Assembly: GCA_026874595.1 (NCBI GenBank)
Contig: CM049314.1
Span: 76,088,300 to 76,152,299, forward strand
Direction of reading: 5' to 3'
Source: Sipunculus nudus
Taxonomy: Eukaryota > Annelida > Sipuncula > Golfingiida > Sipunculidae
DNA: 64,000 nucleotides
Shown: piece by piece, positions 551 through 29,278 of the stretch
Layout: every line of letters starts with the position of its first letter
Numbering within the stretch: the stretch's first letter is position 1
The notes under the pieces: model-generated
Databases searched by the model: none
What the model was told of the DNA's origin: nothing
Seen by the model: the letters and a program-made list of their open reading frames with translations, nothing else
Position numbers and translations under genes: made by a program

Positions 551-770
551 ATCCCTAAGTATAATAGGCAATAGTATTTACCATCTATTTAAAATATATA
601 CCATAGTATATATCATGTCTTATTTTTGCAATAATAGTCCAGTGTGTTTATTACAATATACATGTATAGGAAATGTATATACTGACTTGTAAAGACTTAT
701 GCCTTTTGGCACAAAATTGAGAAAAGAAAATGGATAGGTTTACATGGTTATTGGTAGTAATGAAGTATAA

Positions 771-2724
771 CAAGTGACCCATGGGTCATGATGCTCAGCT
801 GACTAGGAAGAGATTCGCAAAAGGAAATTTTATCACCAGAATGGTAGTATACACCCATTCAACTGAAGCATCAAACAGATTAACCAACAGGCCAAGATTT
901 AGTCTGTATTTATATATCTCAAAAATAGAGAAAAATGTGTAAACTTTTAAAACCAGAATACAGGTAACCGACAAGTAACTACATGTATCTGCCAAAATCG
1001 GATAGTGAGGCATGGATTGAGTGGCAAGGGGAAATAGAGTGAGGTATGTTGCATATTAGCATGGATGTCTGCAGCCTAAATGTGTATGTAGGTTGTGCCA
1101 CCTACCACAAATCCAGAAATCTGTCCAAGTTGTATACACCTGCAAAATTTTAGGCAGAAAAGTCAAACCACTACATGTATATGAGCGATTTTTGCCCATG
1201 GCAGACAAACAGACAAACACTGTGCAAAAATCTTTGCAGGTAACCCCTCCAGTTTTGTGTATGATAAAGACCTATGTGAGATCTAAACACATGCACAATT
1301 TTGGCCCAATCGGTCATATGGTTCCTGAGATATGAGCTTGGATGTGTGCAGCGTTAACTAGAATGTAGGTGGCGCCACCTGTCATAAAATCAAGAAAGCT
1401 GTCCACGATGTATAAACCTGCAAAATTTTAGGCAGTTATGTCGAACCACTACAGAGAAATGAGTAATTTTAGGCCACGGCAGACTAACAGACAGACGCTG
1501 TGCAAACATTGTTACAGGTGGCGCCACCATTTTTTGTGTATGTTACAGAGCTATCAAAGGGCTACATTTGTATAAATTTTATTTCCTGATCGGTCAAACG
1601 GTTCCCGAGATATAAGCTTGGATGTCATCAGCGTGAACGTAAACGTAGGTGGCGCCACCTGTCATAAAATCAAGAAAGCTATCCTGGATGTATACACATG
1701 ACGAATTTCAGGTGAATTAGTCAATTCACTGCAGAGATATGAGTGATTTTAACCCAAGGCAGATGAACAGATGGACACTGTGCAAACATGGTTACAGGTG
1801 GCGCCACCATTTTTTGTGTATGTTATAAAGCAATCCAAGGTCTACATTTGTATCAATTTTATTTCCTGATCGGTCAAACGGTTCCCGAGATATGAGGGTT
1901 TATGAGTGGAAACAGACCCACAAATGGACACTGGATAGAGAGGAAAGGTCAGAGGTCAATGCAAATTGGTTAGGCACCAGTTCACATGTGACCCGATAGT
2001 TTGGGAAAAATCGGTCCATTAGTCTCCGAGGAGCTCTCTGGAAACGAACGCCGCCACGGCTGAGGAAATCGGTCAGAAACATAGTATCCGCAAAACTTAG
2101 TTTTGGCGGATACAAAAATACAGGTGGCTCCACCAGTCTGCAGAAACTAATAAAAACACTTAATGGTCAATATCCATGCAAAAAATCATGGTGATCTCTG
2201 CATTAGTTGTTCAGATACTTCAGTTTTTGTATCAAATTGTCCATTATTCTGAGGGATACTTCAGAGTCCTATAGCTTGAAGGATATGGGTAACAGAGAAC
2301 TAATTTCAAGTTTCCACAGGCACCTTTCATGGGCCTCCTTGCATGACAAGAATGAAGATTCTAGGTCCAGTTGTTGCGATTTGTACCCTGTTGACAGATA
2401 ACCACATCTTTAAAGGTCTCAAAAAAAAGAAAAAAATTCGTAAAAATTTGAAAAAAAAATAGAGATGGCACACCCAGTCTGCAGAAACTGATGGAACAGC
2501 TCATGATCAATATGTATGCCGAAAATCATGACCATCAGTGTTGTAGTTATTGAAATACTGCAGTTTTTGTATCAAATTTTCCATTATTCATGGGGGGGGG
2601 GGGGGTATTTTGGACCCATACAGCTTAAAGAATATGGGTAACAGAGACCTAATTTCAAGTTTCCATGGAGACTTTTCATGGGTCTCCCTGTGTGTCAAGA
2701 ATGAAGATTCTTGGTCCAGTTTTT
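771..2724 (+). mobile_element. Outer copy of repeat element E, 5' part
   Basis: Starts at CAAGTGACCCATGGGTCA followed by a GCTCAGCTGAC subterminal motif. It continues until the sequence is interrupted at 2724/2725 by an inverted copy of the same element. The rest of this copy resumes at 6155. The two outer pieces total 1954 + 1481 = 3435 bp, against 3430 bp for the inner copy. The interior is made of roughly 337-bp tandem modules plus a nested F element. No coding frame is convincing; the short ORFs are repeat shadows. Confidence 0.8.
951..2115 (+). mobile_element. Repeat element F nested in outer E
   Basis: The left end resembles CCAGAATACAGG with a TATCTGCC motif just inside. The right end is TTTTGGCGGATACAA, roughly inverted to the left TATCYGCC. 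The interior has alternating 149- and 131-bp modules, each carrying the palindrome GGTGGCGCCACC (exact at 1368, 1517, 1648, 1797). It interrupts one of the 337-bp modules of E inside an A-rich stretch. The same element occurs on its own at 28097-29278. Confidence 0.65.
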
Positions 2725-5700
2725 AGCTCAGCTGACTGAAAGTCATCTGAGCTATAGCGATCACTCTTTGTCCGTCGTCCGTCTGTCCGTCTGTCTGTCT
2801 GTCCGTCTGTCCGTCTGTCCGTCCGTTAACCAGGCACAAATCGTAACCGCTGGACCTAGAACCTTGTAACTTGGGATTCTGAGAGGTCCATAAAAAATCT
2901 CCTTGGAAACCAGAAATTAGGTCTCTGTTACCCATATCCTTCGAGCTATGTGGCCCGAAAGTACCCCCCAGAAAAGTCAAAAATTTCATACAAAAACTTC
3001 AATATCTCATTAACTACTTGACTGATGGTCATGATTTTTGGCATACATATTGATCATGAGATGTTACATCACTTCCTGCAGACTGGTGGCGCCACCTGTA
3101 TTTTTCGATTTTTTACGAATTTTTTTCTCTATTTTTGAGACCTTTAAAAATGTGAACATCTGTTAACAAGGCACAAATCATAAAGACTGGACTTAGAATC
3201 TTAATTCTTGACACACTGAGAGGTCCATGAAAAATCTCCGTGGAAACCAGAAATTAGGTCTCTGTTACCCATATCCTTCGAGCTATGGGGCCCCAAAGTA
3301 GCCCCCAGAATAGTAAAAAATTTCATACAAAAACTTCAATATTTCAATAACTACATCACTGATGGTCTTCATTTTTGGCATACATATTGATCATGAGATG
3401 TTCGATCAGTTCCTGCAGACTGGTGGCGCCACCTGTACTGTTTGATTTTTTACGATTTTTTCCTCTATTTTTGAGACCTTTGAGGATGCTGTCATCTGTT
3501 AGCGTGGCACAAATCGTAATGACTGGACCTAGAATCTTCATTTTCGACACACTGAGAGACCTATGAAAAGTCTCCATGGAAACCAGAAATTAGGTCTCTG
3601 TTACCCATATCCTTGGAGCTATGGGGCCCAAAATTACCCCCCAGAATAGTCAAAAATTTCATACAAAAACTTCAATATCTCATTAACTACATCACTGATG
3701 GTCATGATTTTAGACATGCATATTGATCATGAGATGTTTCATCAGTTTGTGCAGACTGGTGTCGCCACCTGTATTTTTCAATGTTCACGAATTGTTTTCT
3801 CCATTTTTGAGACCTTTAAGGATGTAGTTATCTGTCAACAGGGTACAAATCGTAACGACTGGACCTAGAATCTTCGTTCTTGACACACAGGGAGACCCAT
3901 GATAAGTCTCCATGGAAACCTGAAATTTGGTCTCTGTTACTCATATCCTTTGAGCTATGGCACTCCAAAGTACAGCTCAGAATAATGGAAAATTTGACAC
4001 AAAAGCTAAAGTATCTGAACAACTAATGCAGAGATAACCATAATTGTTTGCATGGATATTGATCATGGAGTGTTTCATAAGTTTCTGCAGACTGGTGGCT
4101 CCACCTGTATTTGTTCGTTTTTTTTTACGAAATTTTTCTGTATTTTTGAGACCTTTAAAGATATGAACATCTGTTACCAGGGCACAAATCATAAAAACTG
4201 GACCAAGAATCTTCATTCTTGACACACAGGGAGACCCATGAAAAGTCTCCATGGAAACTTGAAATTAGGTCTCTGTTACCCATATTCTTTAAGCTGTATG
4301 GGTCCAAAATACCCCCCCCCCTCCCAGAATAATGGAAAATTTGATACCAAAACTGCAGTATTTCAATAACTACAACACTGATGGTCATGATTTTCGGCAT
4401 ACATATTGATCATGAGCTGTTCCATCAGTTTCTGCAGACTGGGTGTGCCACCTCTATTTTTTTTCAAATTTTTACGAATTTTTTTCTTTTTTTTGAGACC
4501 TTTAAAGATGTGGTTATCTGTCAACAGGGAACAAATCGCAACAACTGGACCTAGAATCTTCATTCTTGTCATGCAAGGAGGCCCATGAAAGGTGCCTGTG
4601 GAAACTTGAAATTAGGTCTCTGTTACCCATATCCTTCAAGCTATAGGACTCTGAAGTATCCTTCAGAATAATGGACAATTTGATACAAAAACTGAAGTAT
4701 CTGAACAACTAAAGCAGAGATCACCATGATTTTTTGCATGGATATTGACCATTAAGTGTTTTTATTAGTTTCTGCAGACTGGTGGAGCCACCTGTATTTT
4801 TGTATCCGCCAAAACGAAGTTTTGCGGATACTATGTTTTTGACCGAGTTCCTCCACCGCGGCAGCGTTCGTTTCCAGAGAGCTCCTCGGAGACTAATGGA
4901 CCGATTTTTCCCAAACTTACACCTATTATCGGGTCACATGTGAACTGGTGCCTAACCAATTTGCGTTGACCTCTGACCTTTCCTCTCTATCCAGTGTCCA
5001 TTTGTGGGTCTGTTTCCACTCATAAACCCTCATTTCTCGGGAACCGTTTGACCGATCAGGAAATAAAATTGATACAAATGTAGCCCTTGGATTGCTTTAT
5101 AACATACACAAAAAATGGTGGCGCCACCTGTAACCATGTTTGCACAGTGTCCATCTGTTCATCTGCCTTGGGTTAAAATCACTCATATCTCTGCAGTGAA
5201 TTGACTAATTCACCTGAAATTCGTCATGCGTATACATCCAGGATAGCTTTCTTGATTTTATGACAGGTGGCGCCACCTACGTTCACGTTCACGCTGATGA
5301 CATCCAAGCTTATATCTTGGGAACCGTTTGACCGATCAGGAAATAAAATTTATACAAATGTAGCCCTTTGATAGCTCTGTAACATACACAAAAAATGGTG
5401 GCGCCACCTGTAACAATGTTTGCACAGCGTCTGTCTGTTAGTCTGCCGCGGCCTAAAATCACTCATTTCTCTGTAGTGGTTCGACATAACTGCCTAAAAT
5501 TTTGCAGGTTTATACATCGTGGACAGCTTTCTTGATTTTATGACAGGTGGCGCCACCTACATTCTAGTTAACGCTGCACACATCCAAGCTCATATCTCAG
5601 GAACCATTTGACCGATTGGGCCAAAATTGTGCATGTGTTTAGATCTCACATAGGTCTTTATCATACACAAAACTGGAGGGGTTACCTGCAAAGATTTTTG

Positions 5701-6154
5701 CACAGTGTTTGTCTGTTTGTCTGCCATGGGCAAAAATCGCTCATATACATGTAGTCGTTTGACTTTTCAGCCTAAAATTTTGCAGGTGTATACAAATTGG
5801 ACAGCTTTCTGGATTTGTGGTAGGTGGCACAACCTACATACACATTTAGGCTGCAGACATCCATGCTAATATGCAACATACCTCACTCTATTTCCCCTTG
5901 CCACTCAATCCATGCCTCACTATCCGATTTTGGCAGATACATGTAGTCACTTGTCGGTTACCCGTATTCTAGTTTTAAAAGTTTACACATTTTTCTCTAT
6001 TTTTGAGATATATAAATACAGACTAAATCTTGACCTGTTGGTTAATCTGTTTGATGCTTCAGTTGAATAGGTATATACTACCATTCTAATGATAAAATTT
6101 CCTTTTGCGAATCTCTTCCCAGTCAGCTGAGCGTCATGACCCATGGGTCACTTG
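2725..6154 (-). mobile_element. Inner, complete copy of element E (inverted, inside outer E)
   Basis: A complete copy on the minus strand. The minus-strand 5' end (CAAGTGACCCATGGGTCA) is at 6154 and the 3' hairpin AGCTCAGATGACTTTCAGTC... is at 2753-2725. Next to the hairpin is a GACGGA/GACAGA microsatellite (2768-2825). The internal module has period 336-348 bp, with the palindrome or one-base variants at 3085, 3422, 3758, 4094, about 4442 and 4781. The insertion point in the outer copy corresponds to position 4200 of this copy, within TTTTT. The short-module region 4802-5966 is the nested F. No protein-coding gene seen; it is presumably mobilised in trans. Confidence 0.8.
4802..5966 (-). mobile_element. 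Repeat element F nested in inner E
   Basis: Reverse-complement counterpart of the F copy at 951-2115. Palindromes GGTGGCGCCACC at 5117, 5266, 5397 and 5546 have the same 149/131 spacing. The ends are TTGTATCCGCCAAAA at the left and CCCGTATTCTAG at the right. Both E copies carry F at the same internal site, so F was already present when E copied itself. Confidence 0.65.
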
Positions 6155-7635
6155 TTATGATTTGTGCCCTGTTAACAGATGTTCATATCTTTAAAGGTCT
6201 CAAAAATACAGAAAAATTTCGTAAAAAAAACCGAACAAATACAGGTGGTGCCACCAGTCTGCAGAAACTTATGAAACACTCCATGATCAATATCCATGCA
6301 AACAATTATGGTTATCTCTGCATTAGTTGTTCAGATACTTTAGCTTTTGTATCAAATTTTCCATTATTCTGAGCTGTACTTTGGAGTGCCATAGCTCAAA
6401 GGATATGGGTAACAGAGACCAAATTTCAGGTTTCCATGGAGACTTATCATGGGTCTCCCTGTGTGTCAAGAACGAAGATTCTAGGTCCAGTCGTTACGAT
6501 TTGTACCCTGTTGACAGATAACTACATCCTTAAAAGTCTCAAAAATGGAGAAAACAATTCGTGAACATTGAAAAATACAGGTGGCGCCACCAGTCTACAG
6601 AAACTGATGAAACATCTCATGATCAATATGTATGTCGAAAATCATGACCATCAGTGATGTAGTTAATGAGATATTGAAGTTTTTGTATGAAATTTTTGAC
6701 TATTCTGGGGGGTTATTTTGGGCCCCATAGCTCGAAGGATATGGGTAACAGAGACCTAATTTCTGGTTTCCATGGAGACATTTCATAGGTCTCTCAGTGT
6801 GTCGAAAATGAAGATTCTAGGTCCAGTCATTACGATTTGTGCCACGCTAACAGATGACAGCATCCTCAAAGGTCTCAAAAATAGAGGAAAAAAATCGTAA
6901 AAAATCAAACTGTACAGGTGGCGCCACCAGTCTGCAGGAACTGATTGAACATCTCATGATCAATATGTATGCCAAAAATGAAGACCATCAGTGATGTAGT
7001 TATTGAGATATTGAAGTTTTTGTATGAAATTTTTTACTATTCTGGGGGTACTTTGGGGCCCGATAGCTCAAAGGATATGGGTAACAGAGACCTAATTTCT
7101 GGTTTCCAAGGAGATTTTTCATGGACCTCTCAGTGTGTCAAGAATTAAGATTCTAAGTCCAGTCTTTATGATTTGTGCCTTGTTTACAGATGTTCACATT
7201 TTTAAAGGTCTCAAAAATAGAGAAAAAAATTCGTAAAAAATCGAAAAATACAGGTGGCGCCACCAGTCTGCAGGAAGTGATGTAACATCTCATGATCAAT
7301 ATGTATGCCAAAAATCATGACCATCAGTCAAGTAGTTAATGAGATATTGAAGTTTTTGTATGAAATTTTTGACTTTTCTGGGGGGTACTTTGGGGCCACA
7401 TAGCTCGAAGGATATGGGTAACAGAGACCTAATTTCTGGTTTCCAAGGAGATTTTTTATGGACCTCTCAGAATCCTAAGTTACAAGGTTCTAGGTCCAGC
7501 GGTTACGATTTGTGCCTGGTTAACGGACGGACAGACGGACAGACGGACAGACAGACAGACGGACAGACGGACAGACGGACGACGGACAAAGAGTGATCGC
7601 TATAGCTCAGATGACTTTCAGTCAGCTGAGCTAAA
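6155..7635 (+). mobile_element. Outer copy of element E, 3' part
   Basis: Continues the outer copy after the inner insertion, starting at ATGATTTGTGCCCTG. It holds four of the roughly 337-bp modules, with palindromes at 6244 (variant), 6580, 6917 and 7253. It then has a GACGGA/GACAGA array (about 7522-7586) and the terminal hairpin, ending in AGCTAAAAA. Confidence 0.78.
7604..7632 (+). other. 3'-terminal hairpin of element E
   Basis: A 29-nt stem-loop: AGCTCAGATGACT, loop TTC, then AGTCAGCTGAGCT, a 13-bp stem with one mismatch. It lies immediately before the A-rich element end. Equivalent hairpins sit at 2725-2753 (inverted), 29613-29641, 33426-33454 (perfect stem) and, degenerate, at 35420-35449. 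A terminal hairpin is typical of rolling-circle transposons, but assignment to that class is inference. Confidence 0.7.
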
Positions 7636-11284: not shown

Positions 11285-12352
11285 TATAATACAGATAGTC
11301 AACAAGCGAATACTTGTATCCGCCAAAATCAGAGTGGGACGGTTGAAGTGAGGCATGGATTGAGTGGCATGGGGAATAGAGTGTGGTGTGTTGCATGATA
11401 GCCTGGAATGTCTGCAGCCGAAATGTGTTTGATGGTTGTGCCACCTACCACCTACCATGTTTATACAAAGATTTATAAACATGCAAAATTTTAGGCAGAT
11501 AAGTCAAACCACTACTGAGATATGAGTGATTTTATCCCACGGCAAACAAACAGACGGACACTTAAAAAATGATTATAGGTGGCGCCATCAGTTTTGCGTA
11601 TGATAAATACCTATGTGAGATCTATAAACATGCAAAATTTTGGCCCAATCGGTCAAATGGTTCCAGAGATATGAGCTTGGATGTCTGTAGCATTAATCTG
11701 AATGTAAGTGGCGCCAATTGCCATAAAATCAAGAAAGCTGTCGAGGATGTATAAACCTGCAAAATTTCAGGTGGAAAAGTCAAACCACTTCCGAAATATG
11801 AGTGATTTTATCCCAAGGCAGATGAACAGATGGATGCTGTGCAAAAATGGTTGCGGGTGGCACCACCAGTTTTGTGTATGATAAAGTGCTATGGGGGATA
11901 TATACACATGCACAATTTTGGCCCAATTGGTTAAACGGTTCCCGAGATATGAGCTTGGATGTCTGTAGTATTAATTTGAATGTAAGTGGCACCACCTGCC
12001 ATAAAATCTAGAAAGCTGTCAATGATGTATAAACCTGCAAAATTTCAGGTGGATAAGTCAAACCACTGCCGAGATATGATTGATTTTATCCCAAGGCAGA
12101 TGAACAGATGGACACTGTGCAAAAATGGTTGCAGGTGGTGTCACCATTTTTAGTGTATGTTATAAAGCTTTCCAAGGGCTACATTTGTGCAAAATCTTTA
12201 GCCTTATCAGTCAAACAGTTCCGGAGATATGTGGGTCTATGTGTGGAAACAGAAGCACAAATGGATGCTGGGCAGAGAGAAAAGGTCAGAAATCAACCAA
12301 AAATGGGGATGCAGCAGTTCAAATGTGACCAATCATAATTCCGAATTTTAAA
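11285..12352 (+). mobile_element. Truncated F element copy
   Basis: The left end is CAACAAGCGAATACTTGTATCCGCCAAAA. The alternating modules contain mutated forms of the palindrome (11578, 11706, 11858, 11986, 12135). The F right end (GGCGGATACAA) is missing; the copy stops where an E-type 5' terminus starts at 12353. More diverged than the copies in E. Confidence 0.6.
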
Positions 12353-12567: not shown

Positions 12568-12571
12568 GTTA

Positions 12572-12612
12572 GGGCCATTTTCACAAAATGTGACAAATAA
12601 CGGTAAAGACAT
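12572..12612 (+). repeat. Left terminal inverted repeat
   Basis: 41 bp beginning GGGCCATTTTC and ending TAACGGTAAAGACAT; the exact reverse complement lies at 22123-22163. Flanked on the outside by GTTA. Confidence 0.95.
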
Positions 12613-13367
12613 GTCCATGATTTTAAAACACTCTAAAACCAATAAAACTTCCTTTTTAAGCATGCAGTCATTTGAAAATCAAAGTTTCATACTAGAAAAA
12701 AATAGAATGAGTATTTAAGAACATTTTTTTAATGACTTATGGCAAAATCAATAATCAAAATGTCCTTACCGTTATGTGTCCAAACTGTATACCACAATAT
12801 GAAAACACAAAATTTTAAGTTTTGAGTCTTGTGACCACTTGATTTTGCACATATTATGTTCAGGTATTATCTGAAAAAGTGCACAATCAATCCTGTATGA
12901 GATTAATATAAACTATTTTTTGTATAGAAGCTGTTTTTCATGTGGCAAAGAACTGAGAATAGATGTGTCTTTACCGTTATCATATTATAATTTGATCAAC
13001 TGGTGGCGATAGTTTTTCAAAAAGCTGACAGAGGGCAACACCTACAAAAGTACCAGGATGTAAGGCAGCCATATTGAACAGAAGAGCAGAAGCATGCTGG
13101 TGTATTTGTGCTGAAAAGTTGCAAGTAAGTAAAAATTTTTGATGTGTCACAAGAATAGAATGTCTTTACCGTTAGCATTAACAAATATACTATCAGTAAA
13201 AATAAAAGGAAGAGTCTTTCACAGCTGGAAGTGCTTTATATATAGGTCATTTTGAAAAACTTTTGCCAAAGGTGTCCTTCATATCCACATTCCCAAGGTC
13301 ACTTGTGTGTCTTTACCGTTATCTGGATTTGTCTTTACCGTTATGGAGTAGTCATAACGGTAAAGAC
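12598..13367. promoter_or_regulatory. Left subterminal array of TAACGGTAAAGAC motifs
   Basis: The 13-mer TAACGGTAAAGAC occurs on the plus strand at 12598 and 13355. On the minus strand it occurs at 12762 (one mismatch), 12967, 13162, 13309 and 13331. It is also part of the TIR. Repeated short motifs in both orientations next to TIRs are the usual form of transposase-binding sites; that role is inferred. Between 13368 and 15791 no gene is evident. A C-rich run lies near 15506-15525. Confidence 0.75.
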
Positions 13368-15791
13368 TTGTATTGACAGAGTGTCACACACATGGGAGTA
13401 TTTTCACAGTTGGTAGGACTAATATAAAGATTTGTCAGACACTTTGCCTTTTGCCAAGTTTAGTTAGGCTGTAGTGTAACCTTGTGTAGTTACATCATAT
13501 CTCACAGTCTGGGATAAACTCTGCTCAGTTAATAAAAATTAACCCAAAACAGATTTTTTAATATATGGAGAATAGATTGTGACCTTTAGAATGAAATTAT
13601 TTTCAGCTCAGTATATAATATAAATTGTGAAAAGGGTAACATGTAAAGAAACTGTCCATGTTCTGCATAAGACTTAGTTATTCCATACTATCTGTGATAA
13701 ATCATTGCATAACAAATCAACAGCATCAGATATCAAAAGAAAATGAGCTGTCATAATTTCAGTAAATGTTAGGTGGTTGAATCCATGTGTTGATAATGCA
13801 GCTTCTACATTAATGTTGAAACCACATTTTAATTTCAAGTGAACTGACCTGTGTTGTGTCATGGATAACCCATATTAAACATTTTTGTCACCAATGTCTT
13901 ACAAACAAATATAATTTCTCTCCATATAAGTTATAAATATTTGATTATAAGATGTTGGTGTTACATTATAATTATATACCTAACGAAAGTATTGCAAGCA
14001 TCTAATGTGCTGAGGTAGTTGAACCAGATATTATTCTGCTTTCAAGATTTTTGGCTCTTTTTCTGTTGGGGGAATAATTGTTTGTACAATTGAACAGGAG
14101 AAGGGGAAATTTTATGAAAAACAAATTTCAGAAGGAACAGGAATAAGACCCTAATATAGATAGAACAGTCCCTTTGAATCCATATATTTTATAAATGTGG
14201 GTCCCCTTTTGTGCTCTTATATATGGCCCAAAAGGTGATCATCATAATAAATACATTGATCACACATTTGTATTGAGATAATACAAGTATCATTCTATCT
14301 TTGTAAGAGTGAATCATATATAGTGATAGAGGATTTACTGCATGGAGACATTTCACAAAATAAGAGCCTACATACATTTGCTTACAAATGAACGAGAACA
14401 TATATTTGCCATGTTTCCCAGATCAGACGCTGGGCCTTAAATAGTTGTCTTCTATTTGAAATAAATTGTTACCTACCAAAATATTGCCCTGAAACCATTT
14501 GCTAACACCTGTACATGAGTGTAAAAACAGTGGACTGGGCACTCATGACAGGCGACAACATAAACACAGCGCCTGGGACTCTGTGCATCCCAGAGCCACA
14601 ACACCTGTCATATCATGAGATGCCCTGTCTGACTTGGCCTCAAAAATGTAATACATATTCCTTCTGGCTGTAACAGCATTACACAGGCCTGGGACCGAAT
14701 ACACGACCTGTGCTACCTGGGTCATTTCCATTGAGGCCTGTGGACCTATCCTGCAAATTTATCTGTTGCAACAGGTTTTACAATGAATTTACATTGGCCC
14801 ATAGACTGTAATGTCCATCCAGCAGAAATATATCAGAGGACATGAAGGTGCATGTGTAGACTTGTTTGGACTACACTTAGTTTAGGATCTGTTGCGCATG
14901 CACAAATAGGACCTCAGTCACATGGCCTTGTTATTGTAAACAGACACACATGGGCTGTTTACTAACAAGCAAAACCATAATAAGGTGTTAAACAGCTCAA
15001 AAGGAGGTACTGAGACCTTGTGCTGAGATGGTTTTGTCTTGAAACTTTGTATAAAGTAAAAAGATGGTGTAAAAGAAAAGACATATTATTACTCCTGATT
15101 GTGTCCCTTTAAATTGACGCTGATTTCAGAGGTCGGATACCAAAGTGAAAATTAATAACCTGATCTTGAGAGCTTGCACGGACAGACTCTTGTGGATAGC
15201 TGCAAAATCCCTTGTTGTGATTCCCTGTTAATTCATATTATGATATGCAATTGCTGAGATTCCATGTACATGTTTGTGTCCCATATCCCTATGACTATTA
15301 TATTTCATAAACACAACCCATTTACTGGCCATGTTTTCAATATCATCTAAAAGTAGTAACCACTGGGTTTATTGTTTTGATGAGTTTTCTGGTGCTTTTA
15401 TCTCGCAAGCCTGATAACATATTTCTTAATAAATGCCTGCTCGCTGGCCTTAAATAGAAGCCTGCTTAGTTTAGATGCCGAGTCAGAGCATTGTCTGAAA
15501 AAATCCCCCCCTCCCCCCCCCCCGCATTTGATCACAAGGAAATACTGTATATATATTTTATCACTCAAGGACAGGTGATGCCTACACTAATTTTGAGGAA
15601 GGCATAATTGCTTAACATGGGTGCGAGGTTTCCTATCAGATTTCACAGTGACATCTTGCCTGACCTGAACCAGTGAGTGCTCTGTCCTTCTGTGTTAAAC
15701 CTCCTTGGTCATACTAACAAGAAAAGTCCTTATACTTTGATTTGAGAATCTGAAGTCATGTATTTTATTTCATTTTAGCTGCTATCCTGAA

Positions 15792-18607
15792 ATGGCACCC
15801 AAAAAGTCAAATGCTGAAGCAATGCGAAAATGCAGAGCAAAATTGAAAGCAGACCCAGTAAGACACCAAGACTACCTCAGAAAAGAGAGAGAAAGATACA
15901 GAAGAAGAAAAACTGAAGGAAAGATAAAGACAATACATGAACTATCAATGAGGGATCAAAGAAATATGCGCCGGATATGGAGGTCAGAAAAGAGAAATCA
16001 AAGAAAGAACATCCATAAAACTGATAGTGCGTGTAGTCTTACTCCGCCACAGACACTTGATGCAGGTTCAAACCATCAGTCACATCAGATAAAAGTAGGG
16101 AGAAGAAAAGTGAGACGAGAAAACCGAAAATGTTATAGAACAATTGTGAAGCAAAATCAAACCATGAAATGCCTTAAAAAAAAAGTGCGGTCTATGCAAA
16201 GATACATTCAGCGACTTAAAGCTGACAAAGTCTGTCAACAAGCCAGCTCAGCTCATGTCAATAATGATTCTCCAGCTGCAAAAGCTGAAATACTGATTCA
16301 CAGGGCTGATGTGGGCAAAATAAGAAGAGAACTAACATTTGGATTTGCTCTGCAAAAGGAAGTCAAAACAAAGTTGAAACAAAATGCTAGAAAACACAAA
16401 GAAAGAAATGCCATCCACAGGGTGGTTATTGGACCCATACTGAGAAAGTACCGCCTCATAAATAAAGTTAAGAAAGATCTGTCAGTTTCACTGTCAACAA
16501 AGCAACTTGAGCACACAAAAGAAAATGCATGTTCCAGGTCATTGCTGACAACACTTAGGAAAAGGAAAACTGGATTGGGGAAAGTAGCAAATGCAGTTAA
16601 AACATTTTTCCTGGAGGACAGGAATAGTACTCCCACAGCTGGGAAAAGAGAGACTGTCACTGTAAACAAACAGAAGAAACAAAGACGTTACCTATGTGAC
16701 AGTATGTTCAATCTATACAAAAAATTCAAATCGGAAAATACATCACTGAAAGTTTCTTACACTTCCTTCACTCGCTTGCATCCATTCCATGTGCTGATCC
16801 CTTCAGTGAATAACAGAAATACAAACAAGTGTAAGCTTCATCATAATTGTGAAATGAAAGCTGCGAAACTCTACAGCCTTGGCTTGCTTCCTTCTTTAAA
16901 AACACAGACTCTGATTTCATCAGTTGTTTGCTCAACAAAAAACAAAAAATGCATGTTTGGCCAATGCACAAAATGTAAGAAAATACAGGATCTCTTTATC
17001 ATCAGTGACAACAAAGCTGCTACAGACAGAGTGAATTACTTTGAGTGGGGGCAGACAAATCAAATCCGGAAAACAAACAAAGGAGAAATGACAATCAAAG
17101 TGATGACCAAACTCGAAAAATGCAGCACTGTAAGCAGCCTGTGTGATCTATCTCAGCTGGAGTTCAGGAAACTAATGAGCCATGAATACAGAATATTCCA
17201 TCAATATGAGGCTGTAAGGTCAATAAAAGAAAAGATGTCCAAAACAGAGTGCATCTTGCAAGTGGACTTTAGTGAGAACTATGCATGTAAATCACACACA
17301 GAAATTCAGTCCATGCATTTTGGGGGGCAGCAGAAGACAGGTGACTTTGCACACATGCCATGCCACCCTGGTTAATGAATCAGGTCAACAGTATAAAAAG
17401 TGTTACTGCACAGTCAGTGAAGACAACCGCCACAGTCCCATCGCCATTTGGGCTCATCTTGTACCAGTTATAGATGACCTGATAGAGAAAGGAATAGATA
17501 CAATCCATTTTGTCTCAGATGGGCCAACAACTCAGTATAGGAACAAGGCCAATTTTTACCTTATGGCCACCCTTCCATTTGACCGATGGCATCTATCTCA
17601 TGTAACATGGAATCTCCTTGAGGCTTCCCATGGAAAAGGTCCAGCTGATGGGATCGGAGCTGCCGTCAAGCCAGCAGCTGATAGGCTTGTAGCAACAAAA
17701 GGTGATGTGCTGACTTGCCAGCAACTTGTGCATGTGGCAGAGACCCTGAATGTCCAAATATCTGAAATCAACTCCAAGGAAATTGATTCTATTCAGGAGG
17801 ATCTAGATCAGCTTTCACCACTTACAATAAAAGGGACAATGCAAATTAAAAGGGACAATGCAAATTCACCAGCTTGTAATTCCATCCAGGGCAACAATTT
17901 TCCACCGTGAGCTCTCATGTTACTGTGCTGCAAGTAACCGCTGTGGACGTTTCTGTGAATGCCATTCACCCATTAAAGTTGAAGTCCCTTGTAAAGTGCA
18001 AATAGCAGTTAATGGGATCGAAAGTCATCTCACAAGGGAACAAATCCTAAGATTTGAAAAGCGACTGCTTGAAGGTCATGACATAGAAGTTTTGGACTTG
18101 TCAACATTGAGTTCTGAAGAAAAGAATGAGTACATTTACTGGAAAGCTTGGAAAGCTGCTAAGTTGTATCATAAACCAGATGATGAATCCAGTGGTGATG
18201 AGGCACAGGTGGTAAAACTAAGTGAAAAAGGTTCAGGAGATCCAGACTGGGAACCACCAAACAGAAATGATGATAAGGACCAATCAGACAAACTGAACCT
18301 GGTTCAGAGTATCACTGTGAAACAAGACAGGTACTATGCTGTTTTTTTTCTATTACGGAGGAAAGTGACATTCTACATAGGGCGTGTCACTGAGGTTCAA
18401 GATGCCATGGTTACAATGAAGTTCTTAGAGCGTAAGTTAGTTGGAAACCAATTTGTTTATGACTGGCCACGTCGAGATGACATTTGCTGTGTTGAGAAAG
18501 ATGTTATTCTTCAAGAGGTTAATTTTAAAAGACCACCACCATTTGCCCTTGAAGAAAGTCAGATGAATATTATTCTGAAGTGTGTGGAGGGGATCCAGCA
18601 AACATGA
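15792..18607 (+). pseudogene. DDE-type transposase, one gene broken by two frame lesions
   Basis: Three overlapping open frames (15792-17375, 17272-17910, 17858-18607) form one protein. The first break is in a run of six Gs at 17319-17324. The second is an exact 19-bp tandem duplication (17829-17847 and 17848-17866). Discounting one G and one 19-bp unit gives 931 codons plus stop. Order: basic N-terminus rich in RKxR motifs; Cys clusters (CKLHHNC; C-x6-C-x4-C-x2-C); a catalytic-like core with D in DFSENY (17265), D in SDGPTTQYRNK (17518) and E in LLEASHGKG (17620); a CYC/CRFCECH cluster; an acidic linker; and a C-terminal domain perhaps like a chromo/SH3 barrel. Spacing is D-84-D-34-E (position differences). 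A TTTTAG acceptor-like site lies just before the ATG, so an upstream 5'UTR exon is possible. It is the only candidate transposase in the element. Confidence 0.8.
17829..17866 (+). repeat. 19-bp tandem duplication inside transposase
   Basis: AAAAGGGACAATGCAAATT occurs twice in a row. Nineteen is not a multiple of three, so the copy shifts the frame by +1 and truncates the reading frame soon after. Counting one copy joins the second and third open frames cleanly. Confidence 0.9.
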
Positions 18608-18819
18608 AGTCAAATACTGTTTCAAAGTGAAAATGTAAACAATTAAGATCCTTTTAATATCACCAAAGTAAACATTTTCCACTGGTTCATATAAACTGGA
18701 AGATTGGACTTGGTTCGTGTCATGATGTAACATCTCAGTTATGCCAAGCCAAGAAAATTCTTCCAAATGGGAAAACTTACACACATTAACTGGCTATATA
18801 GGTACAACCAGTAATCATA

Positions 18820-21190
18820 GTAATGTCCCATGTTTACATAAGTGACTTGAAATTTGATGTGCATATGCATGTACCAGCATTAACTTTGTATACTGCCAAA
18901 TTTATAACAAATACCAGTTTATCATGTTTACATTTGGCTAGTGGTCACACACAGATTTGTCATTTAAAAACTTGTTTAGGCATCAGACCGATACACACAG
19001 GTTTGTCATGTTTGCATAGGTCAATGGTCTGGTCAGATTGATACTCACAGGTTTGTCATATTTGCATATAAGTTAAAGGTCAGACTGATACTCACAGGTT
19101 TGTCATGTTTACATAAGTTAGAGGTCAGACTGATACTCACAGGTTTGTCCTGTTTACATAAGTTAGAGGTCAGGCTGATACTCACAGGTTTGTCATGTTT
19201 GCATAAGTAAGAAGTCAGACTGATACATACAGATTTGTCATGTTTGCATAAGTTAGAGGTCAGGCTGATACACACAGGTTTGTCATGTTTGTATAGGTCA
19301 ATGGTCTGGTCAGACTGATACACACAGGTTTGTCATGTTTGCATAAGTTAAAGGTCAGGCTGATACACACAGGTTTGTCATGTTTGTATAGGTCAATGGT
19401 CTGGTCAGACTGATACACACAGGTTTGTCATGTTTGCATAAGTTAGAGGCCAGGCTGATACACACAGGTTTGTCATGTTTGTATAGGTCAGTGGTCTGGT
19501 CAGACTGATACACACAGGTTTGTCATGTTTGTATGGGTCAATGGTCTGGTCAGACTGATACACACAGGTTTGTCATGTTTGCATAAGTTAGAGGTCAGGC
19601 TGATACACACAGGTTTGTCATGTTTGTATAGGTCAATGGTCTGGTCAGACTGATACACACAGGTTTGTCATGTTTGCATAAGTTAGAGGTCAGGCTGATA
19701 CACACAGGTTTGTCATGTTTGTATAGGTCAATGGTCTGGTCAGACTGATACACACAGGTTTGTCATGTTTGCATAAGTTAAAGGTCAGGCTGATACACAC
19801 AGGTTTGTCATGTTTGTATAGGTCAATGGTCTGGTCAGACTGATACACACAGGTCTGTCATGTTTGCATAAGTTAGAGGTCAGGCTGATACACACAGGTT
19901 TGTCATGTTTGTATAGGTCAGTGGTCTGGTCAGACTGATACAAACAGGTTTGTCATGTTTGTATGGGTCAATGGTCTGGTTAGACCAATACATACAGGTT
20001 TGTCATGTTTGCATAAGTTAGAGGTCAGACTGATACTCACAGGTTTGTCATGTTTACATAAGTTAGAGGTCAGGCTGATACTCACAGGTTTGTCATGTTT
20101 ACATAAGTTAGAGGTCAGACTGATACTCACAGGTTTGTCATGTTTACATAAGTTAGAGGTCAGGCTGATACTCACAGGTTTGTCATGTTTACATAAGTTA
20201 GAGGTCAGACTGATACTCACAGGTTTGTCATGTTTACATAAGTTAGAGGTCAGGCTGATACGTACAGGTTTGTCATGTTTACATAAGTTAGAGATCAGGC
20301 TGATACGTTCAGGTTTGTCATGTTTACATAAGTTAGAGGTCAGGCTGATACGTACAGGTTTGTCATGTTTGCATAAGTTAAAGGTCAGGCTGATACACAC
20401 AGGTTTGTCATGTTTGTATAGGTCAATGGTCTGGTCAGACTGATACACACAGGTTTGTCATGTCTGCATAAGTGAATGGTCTGGTCAGATTGATTTAGGT
20501 GTCATGTTTACACAAGTGAATGGTCAGGTCAGACTGATACTCACAGGTTTGTCATGTTTGCATAAGTTAGAGGTTATGCTAATACACAAAGGTTTGTCAT
20601 GTTTGCATAACTGAATGGTCTGGTCAGATCGATACAGGTGTCATGTTTACACAAGTGAATGGTCTGGTCAGACTGATACTCACAGGTTTGTCATGTTTAT
20701 GTACATAACATCATAAGTGCATAGTCTTGTCAGACTGAGACACAGGTTTGTCATGTTTATGTACATAAGTGCATAGTTTTGTCAGACTGATATACACAGG
20801 TTTGTCATGTTTGCATAACTGAATGGTCTGGTCAGATTGATACAGGTGTCATGTTTTTTACACAAGTGAATTGTCTTTTCAAACTGATTCAGGTCTGTCC
20901 TGTTTGCATCATCCTAGTAGTTACAACCAGGATTGTCATCATAAAACATGTGTTGGGCTCAGACTGATACACACAGTGTCATGTTTACATATGTGTATGG
21001 TCTAAGTCAGACTGATGTATATATACACACCGGTTTGTCATGTTAATGTAAGCAGGTTTTGTGGACAGACTGATTCACACAGGTTTGTTGCACGCGAGTT
21101 AGGGGATCACACTGGTACAACCCAATTTTGTCATGTTTGCACAAGTTAAGTGGTCAGAGTAGACCACCAATGTTTGTTGTGTTTACAGTT
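18820..21190. repeat. Large minisatellite inside the transposon (45- and 50-bp units)
   Basis: Units are built around ACAGGTTTGTCATGTTT followed by either GCATAAGTTAGAGGTCAGGCT (45-bp unit) or GTATAGGTCAATGGTCTGG + TCAGACT (50-bp unit). From about 19300 to 19990 the two types alternate, giving a 95-bp higher-order period. From about 19990 to 20390 only 45-bp units occur, with alternating CAGACT/CAGGCT (90-bp period). The edges (18820-18985 and 20460-21190) are degenerate. Long ORFs on both strands at 19930-20448 arise because 45 is a multiple of three; they are not genes. Confidence 0.9.
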
Positions 21191-21891
21191 GATGAGTTTT
21201 AAAATTAAGACTTAAAGGAGTCATGTTGAATTTTGAGGTAAGCCTGCAGTTGCAATTCGGACTTAATGGTATTATCTGAGAATAATGTCATCCTTTGAGA
21301 CATAGATCAGCAACAAGTAACCTTTGAATAATGTGGGGGTACTAATTATTCTAATTTCCATAAACAATTTTTAAACTGGTCTAGTAGGAATTCAGTTGCA
21401 GTTTCTCAAAATCTTCTATCTCTAAATCTCCTTAGAATTTAACATGGTATATTTTTATTTTTTGCTTTATTTGCCAAATACATCACATCATAAAGACTGG
21501 GTTAGCTCATAATTTCCATTTGTAATTACAAACATCCAGGGATACTTGTTCTTTGAATAAAATTCAGCATTGAACACACAGAACAATTGACCATGATGAT
21601 ATTTAAAATATATGTCATCACACATTGTATACTATTTTGAGGATCTCATAGTTTATAGTTTGGAAACAGTAACTTGAATGTAGTCATTTAAATGCAGCTT
21701 TTATCAGTAGTTGCATGGTGTATTTGTAAACTTATGATAAGTACAATTCCTATTGATCAGGAGTTCATAGGTTCCTTTAAACTGTGAAGTTTTACATAGG
21801 GTTATTAAAGATCTTTAACAAAAATATTGTCTTATTTTGAGTCATTAAAGAACATGAAATTGTTTTAAATATGAAACCCATGATATCTTTA

Positions 21892-22137
21892 TAATGGTAA
21901 AGACATAGCACGTCTTTCCTGTTATTTCCATAACGGTAAAGACGTAGCGCATGTCTTTCCTGTTATTTCCGTAACGGTAAAGAAGAACAGGGAATTATTT
22001 TTTGGGTAATATTTCAGTTATTTTTTAAAATCCAGCTTTGCTGTTTCTGCTGTTCATTTGTGTGCACACATTCTTCAAAACAAAATGTAAAAAATTGAAT
22101 TCCTCAAAGATTTTTTTTTTAAATGTCTTTACCGTTA
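21892..22137. promoter_or_regulatory. Right subterminal array of TAACGGTAAAGAC motifs
   Basis: Plus-strand copies at 21892 (one mismatch), 21931 and 21972 (last base differs). Minus-strand variants GTCTTTCCTGTTA at 21912 and 21953, and an exact minus copy at 22125 within the TIR. The spacing of about 20 bp between alternating orientations forms small inverted pairs. Mirrors the left-end array. Confidence 0.75.
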
Positions 22138-22163
22138 TTTGTCACATTTTGTGAAAATGGCCC
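22123..22163 (-). repeat. Right terminal inverted repeat
   Basis: Exact 41-bp reverse complement of 12572-12612, ending GAAAATGGCCC and followed by GTTA. Confidence 0.95.
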
Positions 22164-22539
22164 GTTATATAAAAGTATATTTCATGAAGGTGTGAAGGTA
22201 ATTAAGTTTTTAAAAGTTAAATATATGGCCATAAGAGTTAAAAATTAATCCCACAAAGTTTGACCAATATTCCTAATTTTAATACTAAGTTAACAGTGTT
22301 ATTCACACCTAGGCCCCGCCAACTTTAAGAGATATAAATAAAATGCTAAAAAGTATTTATATCTTCTTAAATCTTGTCAGTTAGCACTTACATTAGATCC
22401 TAATATTTTATCACATTTGAATATTAGGATTAAATTCCTGAAATTTTTTTCTTTATAAAAATCAAAATTGTCCAAGTCTCATCAAAAAGAATTTATTTAA
22501 CATTAAAATTCTAAGATTCATCTTGTTTATTAGTCCTGT

Positions 22540-28096: not shown

Positions 28097-29278
28097 CTAG
28101 AATACGGGCAGTCTACAAGCGACTACGTGTATCCGCCTAAATCAGAGTGGAACGGGTGAAGTGAGGCATGGATTGAGTGGCAAGGGAAAATTGAGTGTTG
28201 CATATTAGCATGGATGTCTGCAGCCAAATTGTGTATGTAGGTTGCCCCCCATACCACAAAATCCAGAAAGCCGTCCAAGTTGTATACATATGAAAAATTT
28301 AAGGCAGATAAGTCAAACCACTACATGTATATGAGTAATTTTAGCCCGTGGCAGACAAACAGATGGACGCTGAGCAAAATGGTTGCAGGTGACGCCACCA
28401 GTTTTGCGTATGATAAAGAGCTATGTGAGAACTATACACATGCAAAACTTTGGCCCAATCGGTCAAACGGTTCCCAAGATATGAGCTTGGATGTCTGCTG
28501 CATAAACTAGAATGCAGGTGGTGCCAGCTGTCATAAAATCAGAAAAGCTATCCAGGATGTGTATGCATGCCAAATTTCAGGTGAATTAGTCAAGTCACTG
28601 CAGAGATATGAGTAATTTTAACCCAAGGCAGACGAACAGATGGACACTGTGCAAACATGGTTGCAGGTGGCGCCACCATTTTTGTGTATATTATAAAGCT
28701 CTCCAAGGGCTACATTTGTGCAAAAAAATTTTCCTGATCGGTCAAACGGTTCCCGAGATATGAGCTTGGATGTCTGCAGCATAAACGTGAATGTAGGTGG
28801 CGCCACCTGTCATAAAATCAGAAGAGCTATCCAGGATGTATACGCATACAGAATTTCAGGTGAATTAGTCCAGTCACTGCAGAGTTATGAGTGATTTTAA
28901 CCCAAGGCAGACAAACAGATGGACACTGTGCAAACATGGTTGCAGGTGGCGCCACCATTTTTTGTGTATGTTATAAAGCTCTCCAAGGGCTACATTTGTG
29001 TAAAAAAATTTCCTGATCGGTCAAACGGTTCCCGAGATATGTGGGTTTATGTGTGGAAACAGACGCACAAACGGACGCAGAGCGCAGAGGAAAGGTCAGA
29101 GGTCAAAACAAAATCGGGGCGCAGCAGTTCACATGTGACCTGAACATAATCCCGGGTTTCGTAAAATTCCGCCCAGCGGTTACGGAGGAGTTCTCCGGAC
29201 ACCTACGCCGCGGCGGCGGCGGCGGCGGCGTGCAGCTGAAAACATAGTATCCGCAGAACTCTGTTTTGGCGGATACAA
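28097..29278 (+). mobile_element. Stand-alone F element inserted in R3
   Basis: Runs from CTAGAATACGGGCAG to TTTTGGCGGATACAA, with subterminal TATCCGCC/GGCGGATA and CAGAGT/ACTCTG inverted. Exact palindromes GGTGGCGCCACC at 28666, 28796 and 28945 have 130/149 spacing. A CGG/GGC trinucleotide run is at about 29208-29231. R3 sequence continues on both sides, with TTAAA on each side as a possible target duplication. Read on the minus strand the element ends CTAG, as Helitrons do; that class is not established. Confidence 0.7.

Follow-up and report, generated by a model that had tools for sequence, protein, structure and literature searches.

The 9.6-kb element described here from the genome of Sipunculus nudus is a real DNA transposon, probably of a Sola-like type. 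With somewhat better than even confidence, we favor the reading that it is a complete element with terminal inverted repeats (TIRs), in which the DDE-type gene is now broken; that the site arrays near its ends would be bound, the ends paired and cut, and insertion made with a 4-bp stagger; that a transposase of the same lineage would have mobilized a set of short copies; and that its class is most likely Sola, Sola2-like. The window is the whole stretch of DNA that was analyzed, 64,000 nucleotides in length (C9:76088300-76152299), and the genome searched is the 1.43-Gb assembly of 153 contigs. All features are listed in Table 1.

Table 1. Features of the element and its immediate flanks (positions in the window)
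Feature	Position	Strand	Details
Whole DNA transposon	12572-22163		9.6 kb; complete copy
Left target-site duplication copy	12568..12571		GTTA, abuts left TIR; joined flanks holding one GTTA are matched through the junction
Left TIR	12572..12612	+	41 bp; begins GGGCC; holds one copy of the 14-bp site
Left subterminal array	12598..13368		7 sites TGTCTTTACCGTTA: 12598-, 12761+, 12966+, 13161+, 13308+, 13330+, 13355-
High-copy repeat inside element	14438..15117		39 other scored places, 72-79%
Transposase gene, inferred single exon, broken	15792..18607	+	Frame of ~930 codons, apparently without introns
Open frames of transposase	15792-17375, 17272-17910, 17858-18607		In different frames; the first 527 aa
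Lesion 1	17322..17327	+	Run of six G; one-base frameshift placed there by fit to relatives
Lesion 2	17828..17866	+	Perfect 19-bp tandem duplication, shifts frame
Minisatellite behind transposase gene	18983..20909		45-50-bp units, ~37-40 copies
Right subterminal array	21892..22137		5 sites: 21892-, 21931-, 21952+, 21972-, 22124+ (last inside TIR)
Right TIR	22123..22163	-	41 bp
Right target-site duplication copy	22164..22167		GTTA, abuts right TIR

Element Ends and Target Site

A sequence-only reading of the window had proposed a complete-ended DNA transposon with identical inverted ends of 41 bp and flanking GTTA duplications, and all of these features were borne out: the two TIRs are complementary at 41 of 41 nucleotides (100%), and a copy of GTTA abuts each of them. 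Two checks that the same reading had proposed, a genome search for other copies of the TIR and a search for empty GTTA sites, both gave positive results. The TIR 41-mer was found at 45 genome sites with up to three mismatches, compared to 0 for the reversed control, and the only matches with zero mismatches were the two ends of the window element itself. The left flank of the element belongs to a high-copy repeat, for which a first look gave 4924 candidates and 40 were scored. When the two flanks were joined with one GTTA, all 40 scored places (of 2020 candidates) were matched through the junction, with 92-95% identity. The spans of these matches, which were taken from the match coordinates and not from the letters at those places, were exactly 400 for 400 at 2 places, 397 at one, and 405-408 at the other 37. 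Thus, empty sites exist, and the element split a copy of the repeat, duplicating 4 bp. The alternative, that the TIRs and GTTA are a coincidence or an assembly join, could appeal to the coding part having been found once at high identity; given the TIR sites compared to the empty control, the recurrent 4-bp duplications, and the empty sites, it can practically be dismissed, and an assembly join is ruled out by the empty sites together with the other copies bearing 4-bp duplications.

Transposase Gene and Its Relatives

The gene copy, previously described as broken, carries two lesions, a one-base frameshift and a 19-bp tandem duplication, and we infer that the frame was lost by two events. Because of the frameshift, the DFSENY box is read in one frame, and the SDGPTTQYRNK and EASHGKG boxes in another. 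The acidic residues of the window protein are spaced as D-83-D-33-E, where the third looks like E, the D that follows in HGKGxxDG being an alternative. Of the 19 rows of the tree described below, the window among them, 16 have the three boxes at similar distances; L018, L019, and L036 do not have all three, and L017 has H in place of the second D. Judging by its sequence, we regard the transposase as putatively DDE-type. For the read-through core, AlphaFold gave a mean pLDDT of 31, too low to judge a putative RNase H fold.

No match above cut-off was obtained in Pfam for the window pieces and eight relatives, in PHROGs for the window pieces, in NCBIfam for the read-through core and four relatives, or among PDB sequences for one window piece and the profiles A1, A2, and A4. 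Weak matches were to BssC_TutF in L013, L014, and L017 (0.0002-0.0012, below the curated cut-off), to the BRWD ancillary family in L034 (E 0.011, below cut-off), and to the PDB entry 3qc1 (0.041). A Tudor or SH3-like C-terminal region, toward which the BRWD match would point, is a guess from the sequence, for which no PDB support was found. Rfam returned 0 families in the window, no relative was found in viral and prokaryote contigs, and a literature search on the box motifs returned nothing relevant.

A genome search with the DDE part gave 54 matches at E ≤ 0.001, the part itself being one of them and some belonging to the same locus. Ranked by score, the protein relative that comes after it is 53% identical; a fragment of 41 residues reaches 71%. 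The best relative at the DNA level (C2:58369780-58372323) is 73-74% identical, and the genome yielded no other copy of the coding part above 74% DNA identity. Open frames of the relatives, measured from stop to stop, reach 824 codons in L014 and L015, 877 in L025, and 955 in L011. The tree, which comprises the window protein along with 18 of the 29 loci of relatives (L010-L038), consists of two halves separated with a split support of 100/100; the window protein falls into the first half on a long branch, and its placement is unsure. The pairs L025/L026 and L029/L030 of the second clade have open frames with DFAEN and DSP boxes and are, respectively, 99.5% and 99.7% identical over 3.5 kb, in compared stretches that stop short of the element ends.

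Two more distant pairs of relatives could be followed to their ends. L059 and L060 have 5.6 kb in common at 99.5% identity, with different flanks; their ends are GGGTCATT and GGGTATTT, and L060 is flanked by the duplication aaaa/aaaa, L059 by acat/acaa, which agree at 3 of 4 bases. L061 and L062 have 5.1 kb in common at 96.4% and the last 1.3 kb at 88.6%; they have the ends GGGTTG and GGGTAG and the exact duplications aatt (L061) and attt (L062). It should be noted that the ends of all four were shifted by hand to GGG, and that aaaa and attt adjoin runs of A or T. The inverted repeats of L059 and L061 are short and imperfect.

Short Copies Sharing the Ends

Twenty short-copy stretches (L039-L058) were examined, 18 of which have both ends, L055 and L056 showing one end only. 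Exact 4-bp duplications flank 13 of the 18 two-ended copies: atgc, atac in two copies that have their flanks in common, gtat, atat five times, ataa, acct, taat, and aaat. The remaining five are L040, L045 (3 of 4 bases), L046, L047, and L053. An additional copy on C1 has aaat on either side. Most short copies are ~3.65 kb in length, L042, L043, and L047 being longer and others shorter, and the 13 near-full copies differ pairwise by a median of 2.1% (range 1.3-2.9%; 78 pairs, gaps excluded). Three empty sites were found, each with one copy of the duplication: that of L049 in L047, that of L043 in L042, where the letters of the duplication differ by one base, and that of L039 in L055, where the left flank has indels. 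These empty sites and duplications, along with those of the window element, bear out a complete-ended DNA transposon. The pairs L041/L042 and L039/L040 have flanks in common, on both sides or on the left only, as if the regions had been duplicated or recombined after the insertion.

The short copies resemble the window element in the TIR (40 of 41 in most), in the order of the left sites, and in the 4-bp duplications. They differ from it in coding content and in the sequence adjoining the TIR. No open frame of at least 130 codons was present in the eight short copies tested, and translated searches with the transposase detected no coding remnant in the 20 stretches. Where the window and the short copies were aligned throughout, the first 810 bp are 66-68% identical and the last 214 bp 72-75%; in aligned stretches of the short copies, the sequence adjoining the TIR is 66-78% identical to that of the window. 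Under the Repbase family rule, i.e., equal length of the target-site duplication (TSD) and positions 1-11 alignable with one mismatch, as worded in an excerpt of PMC4455052, the short copies group with the window element, and L059 and L061, by our reading of their ends, fall outside its group. The short copies and the window element would, as far as their sequences indicate, use one transposase lineage.

Subterminal Sites

The subterminal motif arrays noticed in the sequence-only reading proved to be confined to the element: with up to two mismatches, the 14-bp site has 12 matches in the 64-kb window, every one inside the element, compared to 0.60 expected. Conservation of the sites was scored against the per-column majority of eight short copies, with gaps counted as differences. 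Outside the TIR, the left sites equal the majority at 83 of 84 bases, compared to 411 of 705 (58%) for the other left sequence, which suggests that the 14-bp sites are putative transposase-binding sites. The corresponding numbers for the right end are 23 of 28 and 92 of 151, and the TIRs are identical to the majority at 40 of 41 positions at either end. Order and spacing of the sites are kept between the window and the short copies at the left end (offsets 27, 190, 395, 590, 737, 759, and 784 in the window; 27, 192, 398, 594, 742, 764, and 789 in L044), and less so at the right.

A related site core, T[A/T]ACGGT, is found in two distant relatives. The most repeated subterminal 10-mer is ACACCGTTAC, i.e., GTAACGGTGT, in L059 (5 copies) and GTTACGGTAA in L061 (7 copies); both are related to TAACGGTAAA of the window (9 copies), whereas 100 base shuffles produced a maximum of 3 copies. 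Near the genes of the relatives, [AT]ACGGT stood out at ≤1/200 shuffles only in L014 and L015 of 24 loci, and these are two copies of one element; no second-clade locus stood out in this set, the loci of which stop short of the element ends. The total for the window element, 10, is hardly above the 7.8 obtained for mononucleotide shuffles, and all 10 lie within the outer 800 bp on the left or 240 bp on the right.

Internal Repeats and Age of the Insertion

The sequence-only reading had taken the identical TIRs as a sign of recent movement. A comparatively recent movement is likely, since the split target repeat is 92-95% similar to its uninterrupted paralogues; however, the identity of the TIRs does not date the insertion, because copies that are only 66-68% identical to the window element over the adjacent 810 bp keep 40 of 41 TIR positions. 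The high-copy repeat inside the element (2.4-kb query; 40 scored of 5315 first-look candidates) has two short continuation pieces at 87%, the exceptions to its range of 72-79%. As this range is compared to the 92-95% of the target repeat, the internal repeat would be an old insert that was already inside the element at the comparatively recent move. The minisatellite, too, is an old part of the transposon lineage, since the 74%-identical relative on C2 has a related 51-bp array downstream of its gene; this array was separately homogenized and matches the window unit at 78-84% identity over lengths of 78-90 bp. Weaker minisatellite matches occur at C2:75969526-75970303 and C6:30716789-30721228.

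Elsewhere in the window, a nested long inverted repeat (767-7572), with arms 767-1998/4927-6158 at 98% and 2777-3305/7044-7572 at 99%, is made of 280- and 336-bp tandem units with the palindrome GGTGGCGCCACC; a similar unit of 278-279 bp is found again at 11466-12159 and 28329-29041.

Superfamily Placement

In the type of duplication and the size of the protein, the published description that agrees best is that of Sola, and of Sola2 in particular. According to excerpts of the respective papers, Sola2, as described for the dictyostelid DFa and PPa elements, has AT-rich 4-bp TSDs (AWWT; ATAT, AAAT, ATTT) and a transposase of 888 aa (PMC3627910); Sola elements have 4-bp TSDs, lengths of mostly 2-9 kb with some above 15 kb, TIRs of 11-1124 bp, and a transposase called DDD (PMC10741241); and Sola1-3 are reported from bivalves (PMC10294476). 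The Sola passages of PMC7998251, PMC6786969, and PMC7728395 held nothing bearing on the placement. Compared by description only, the window element agrees with Sola2 in the excerpt of PMC3627910 in 4-bp AT-rich TSDs, a size of several kb, deleted relatives with a common end region, and a long transposase, 888 aa there and frames of 824-955 codons in some of the relatives here, although a size of ~900 aa is not specific to Sola. The duplications are GTTA in the window element, mostly A/T in the short copies, though atgc and acct occur, and aaaa, aatt, and attt in the relatives. In contrast, the TIRs of Sola2 in that excerpt are 12-21 bp in length, compared to 41 perfect bp here, and the Sola transposase is called DDD (PMC10741241, excerpt), whereas the third residue of the window protein looks like E, with the D that follows as an alternative. 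Since the AT-rich 4-bp duplications and the ~900-aa transposase agree with Sola2 as described in the excerpt of PMC3627910, the superfamily is probably not new. The undescribed family that the sequence-only reading had suggested is plausible at the family level, given that no coding copy exceeds 74% DNA identity and that the libraries searched do not name the protein, and probably does not extend to the superfamily.

The same mechanism might operate with a transposase of another named DDE superfamily, e.g., of the Academ or Ginger lineage, which we consider unlikely, if worth keeping in mind. No library searched names the protein, and duplications of 4 bp or 3-4 bp are found in several DDE superfamilies; on the other hand, the ends of CMC/Chapaev are CAC and those of Ginger TGT, compared to GGG..CCC termini in three distant elements here. 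Kolobok and KolobokP, as described in an excerpt of PMC9587614, have 5'-RR..YY-3' termini, duplications of ~4 bp, and a DDD/E transposase, as does the window element with its putative DDE-type transposase; however, the Kolobok TSD is TTAA, compared to GTTA here, and the solo repeats of KolobokP have 3-5-bp TSDs. KolobokP further differs in its long terminal direct repeats; the 20 direct-repeat families listed here, of 46 in all, include no such repeats. The excerpt also gives a C/DxxH signature between the second D and E for Kolobok, hAT, P, MuDR, and Dada. This signature is present in 4 of 17 rows, namely, the window (DRWH) and, at another place, L014, L015, and L017 (CxxH); it is no conserved family feature, which counts against all five. 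Kolobok proper and piggyBac were rejected because TTAA is found in 0 of the 14 exact duplications, and Tc1/mariner because the duplications are not the 2-bp TA.

It is quite improbable that the element belongs to an undescribed DDE superfamily that abounds in this genome, lacks a Pfam entry, and has co-evolving subterminal site arrays. The number of matches in one genome, several of them with long open frames, and the empty Pfam result for the window pieces and eight relatives would be in line with it, but a missing Pfam model is no proof of novelty, the kind of TSD and the length of the protein are already in agreement with Sola2, and similar proteins are widespread in animals. A broader conjecture, which we regard as doubtful, is that of an unnamed animal DDE lineage, possibly a superfamily, in which the transposase and the site arrays of the T[A/T]ACGGT type at both ends diversified together, each family having its own version of the site (TAACGGTAAAGACA, TTACGGTAATGACA, TGTAACGGTGT) and one code being nearly unchanged in a non-coding parasite family.

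Proposed Mechanism and Significance

For the Sola-like transposon that we favor, a transposase complex would bind the arrays of TAACGGTAAAGACA sites, perhaps via a basic N-terminal region, and would pair the two element ends; the acidic triad would cut at the GGG/CCC termini, and insertion would occur with a 4-bp stagger, mostly in AT-rich target DNA. An intact transposase of the same lineage, not necessarily that of the window copy, may have mobilized the 3.65-kb elements, since between these and the window element nothing but the TIR and the sites is nearly unchanged.

The window contains an element with both boundaries defined, the transposase of which is of a class not recognized by the protein libraries searched, and relatives with open frames are present in the same genome. 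The left sites, nearly unchanged in surroundings of low identity, make up a putative binding-site code that is testable, and this would permit a direct test of end recognition and of parasitism by non-coding elements.
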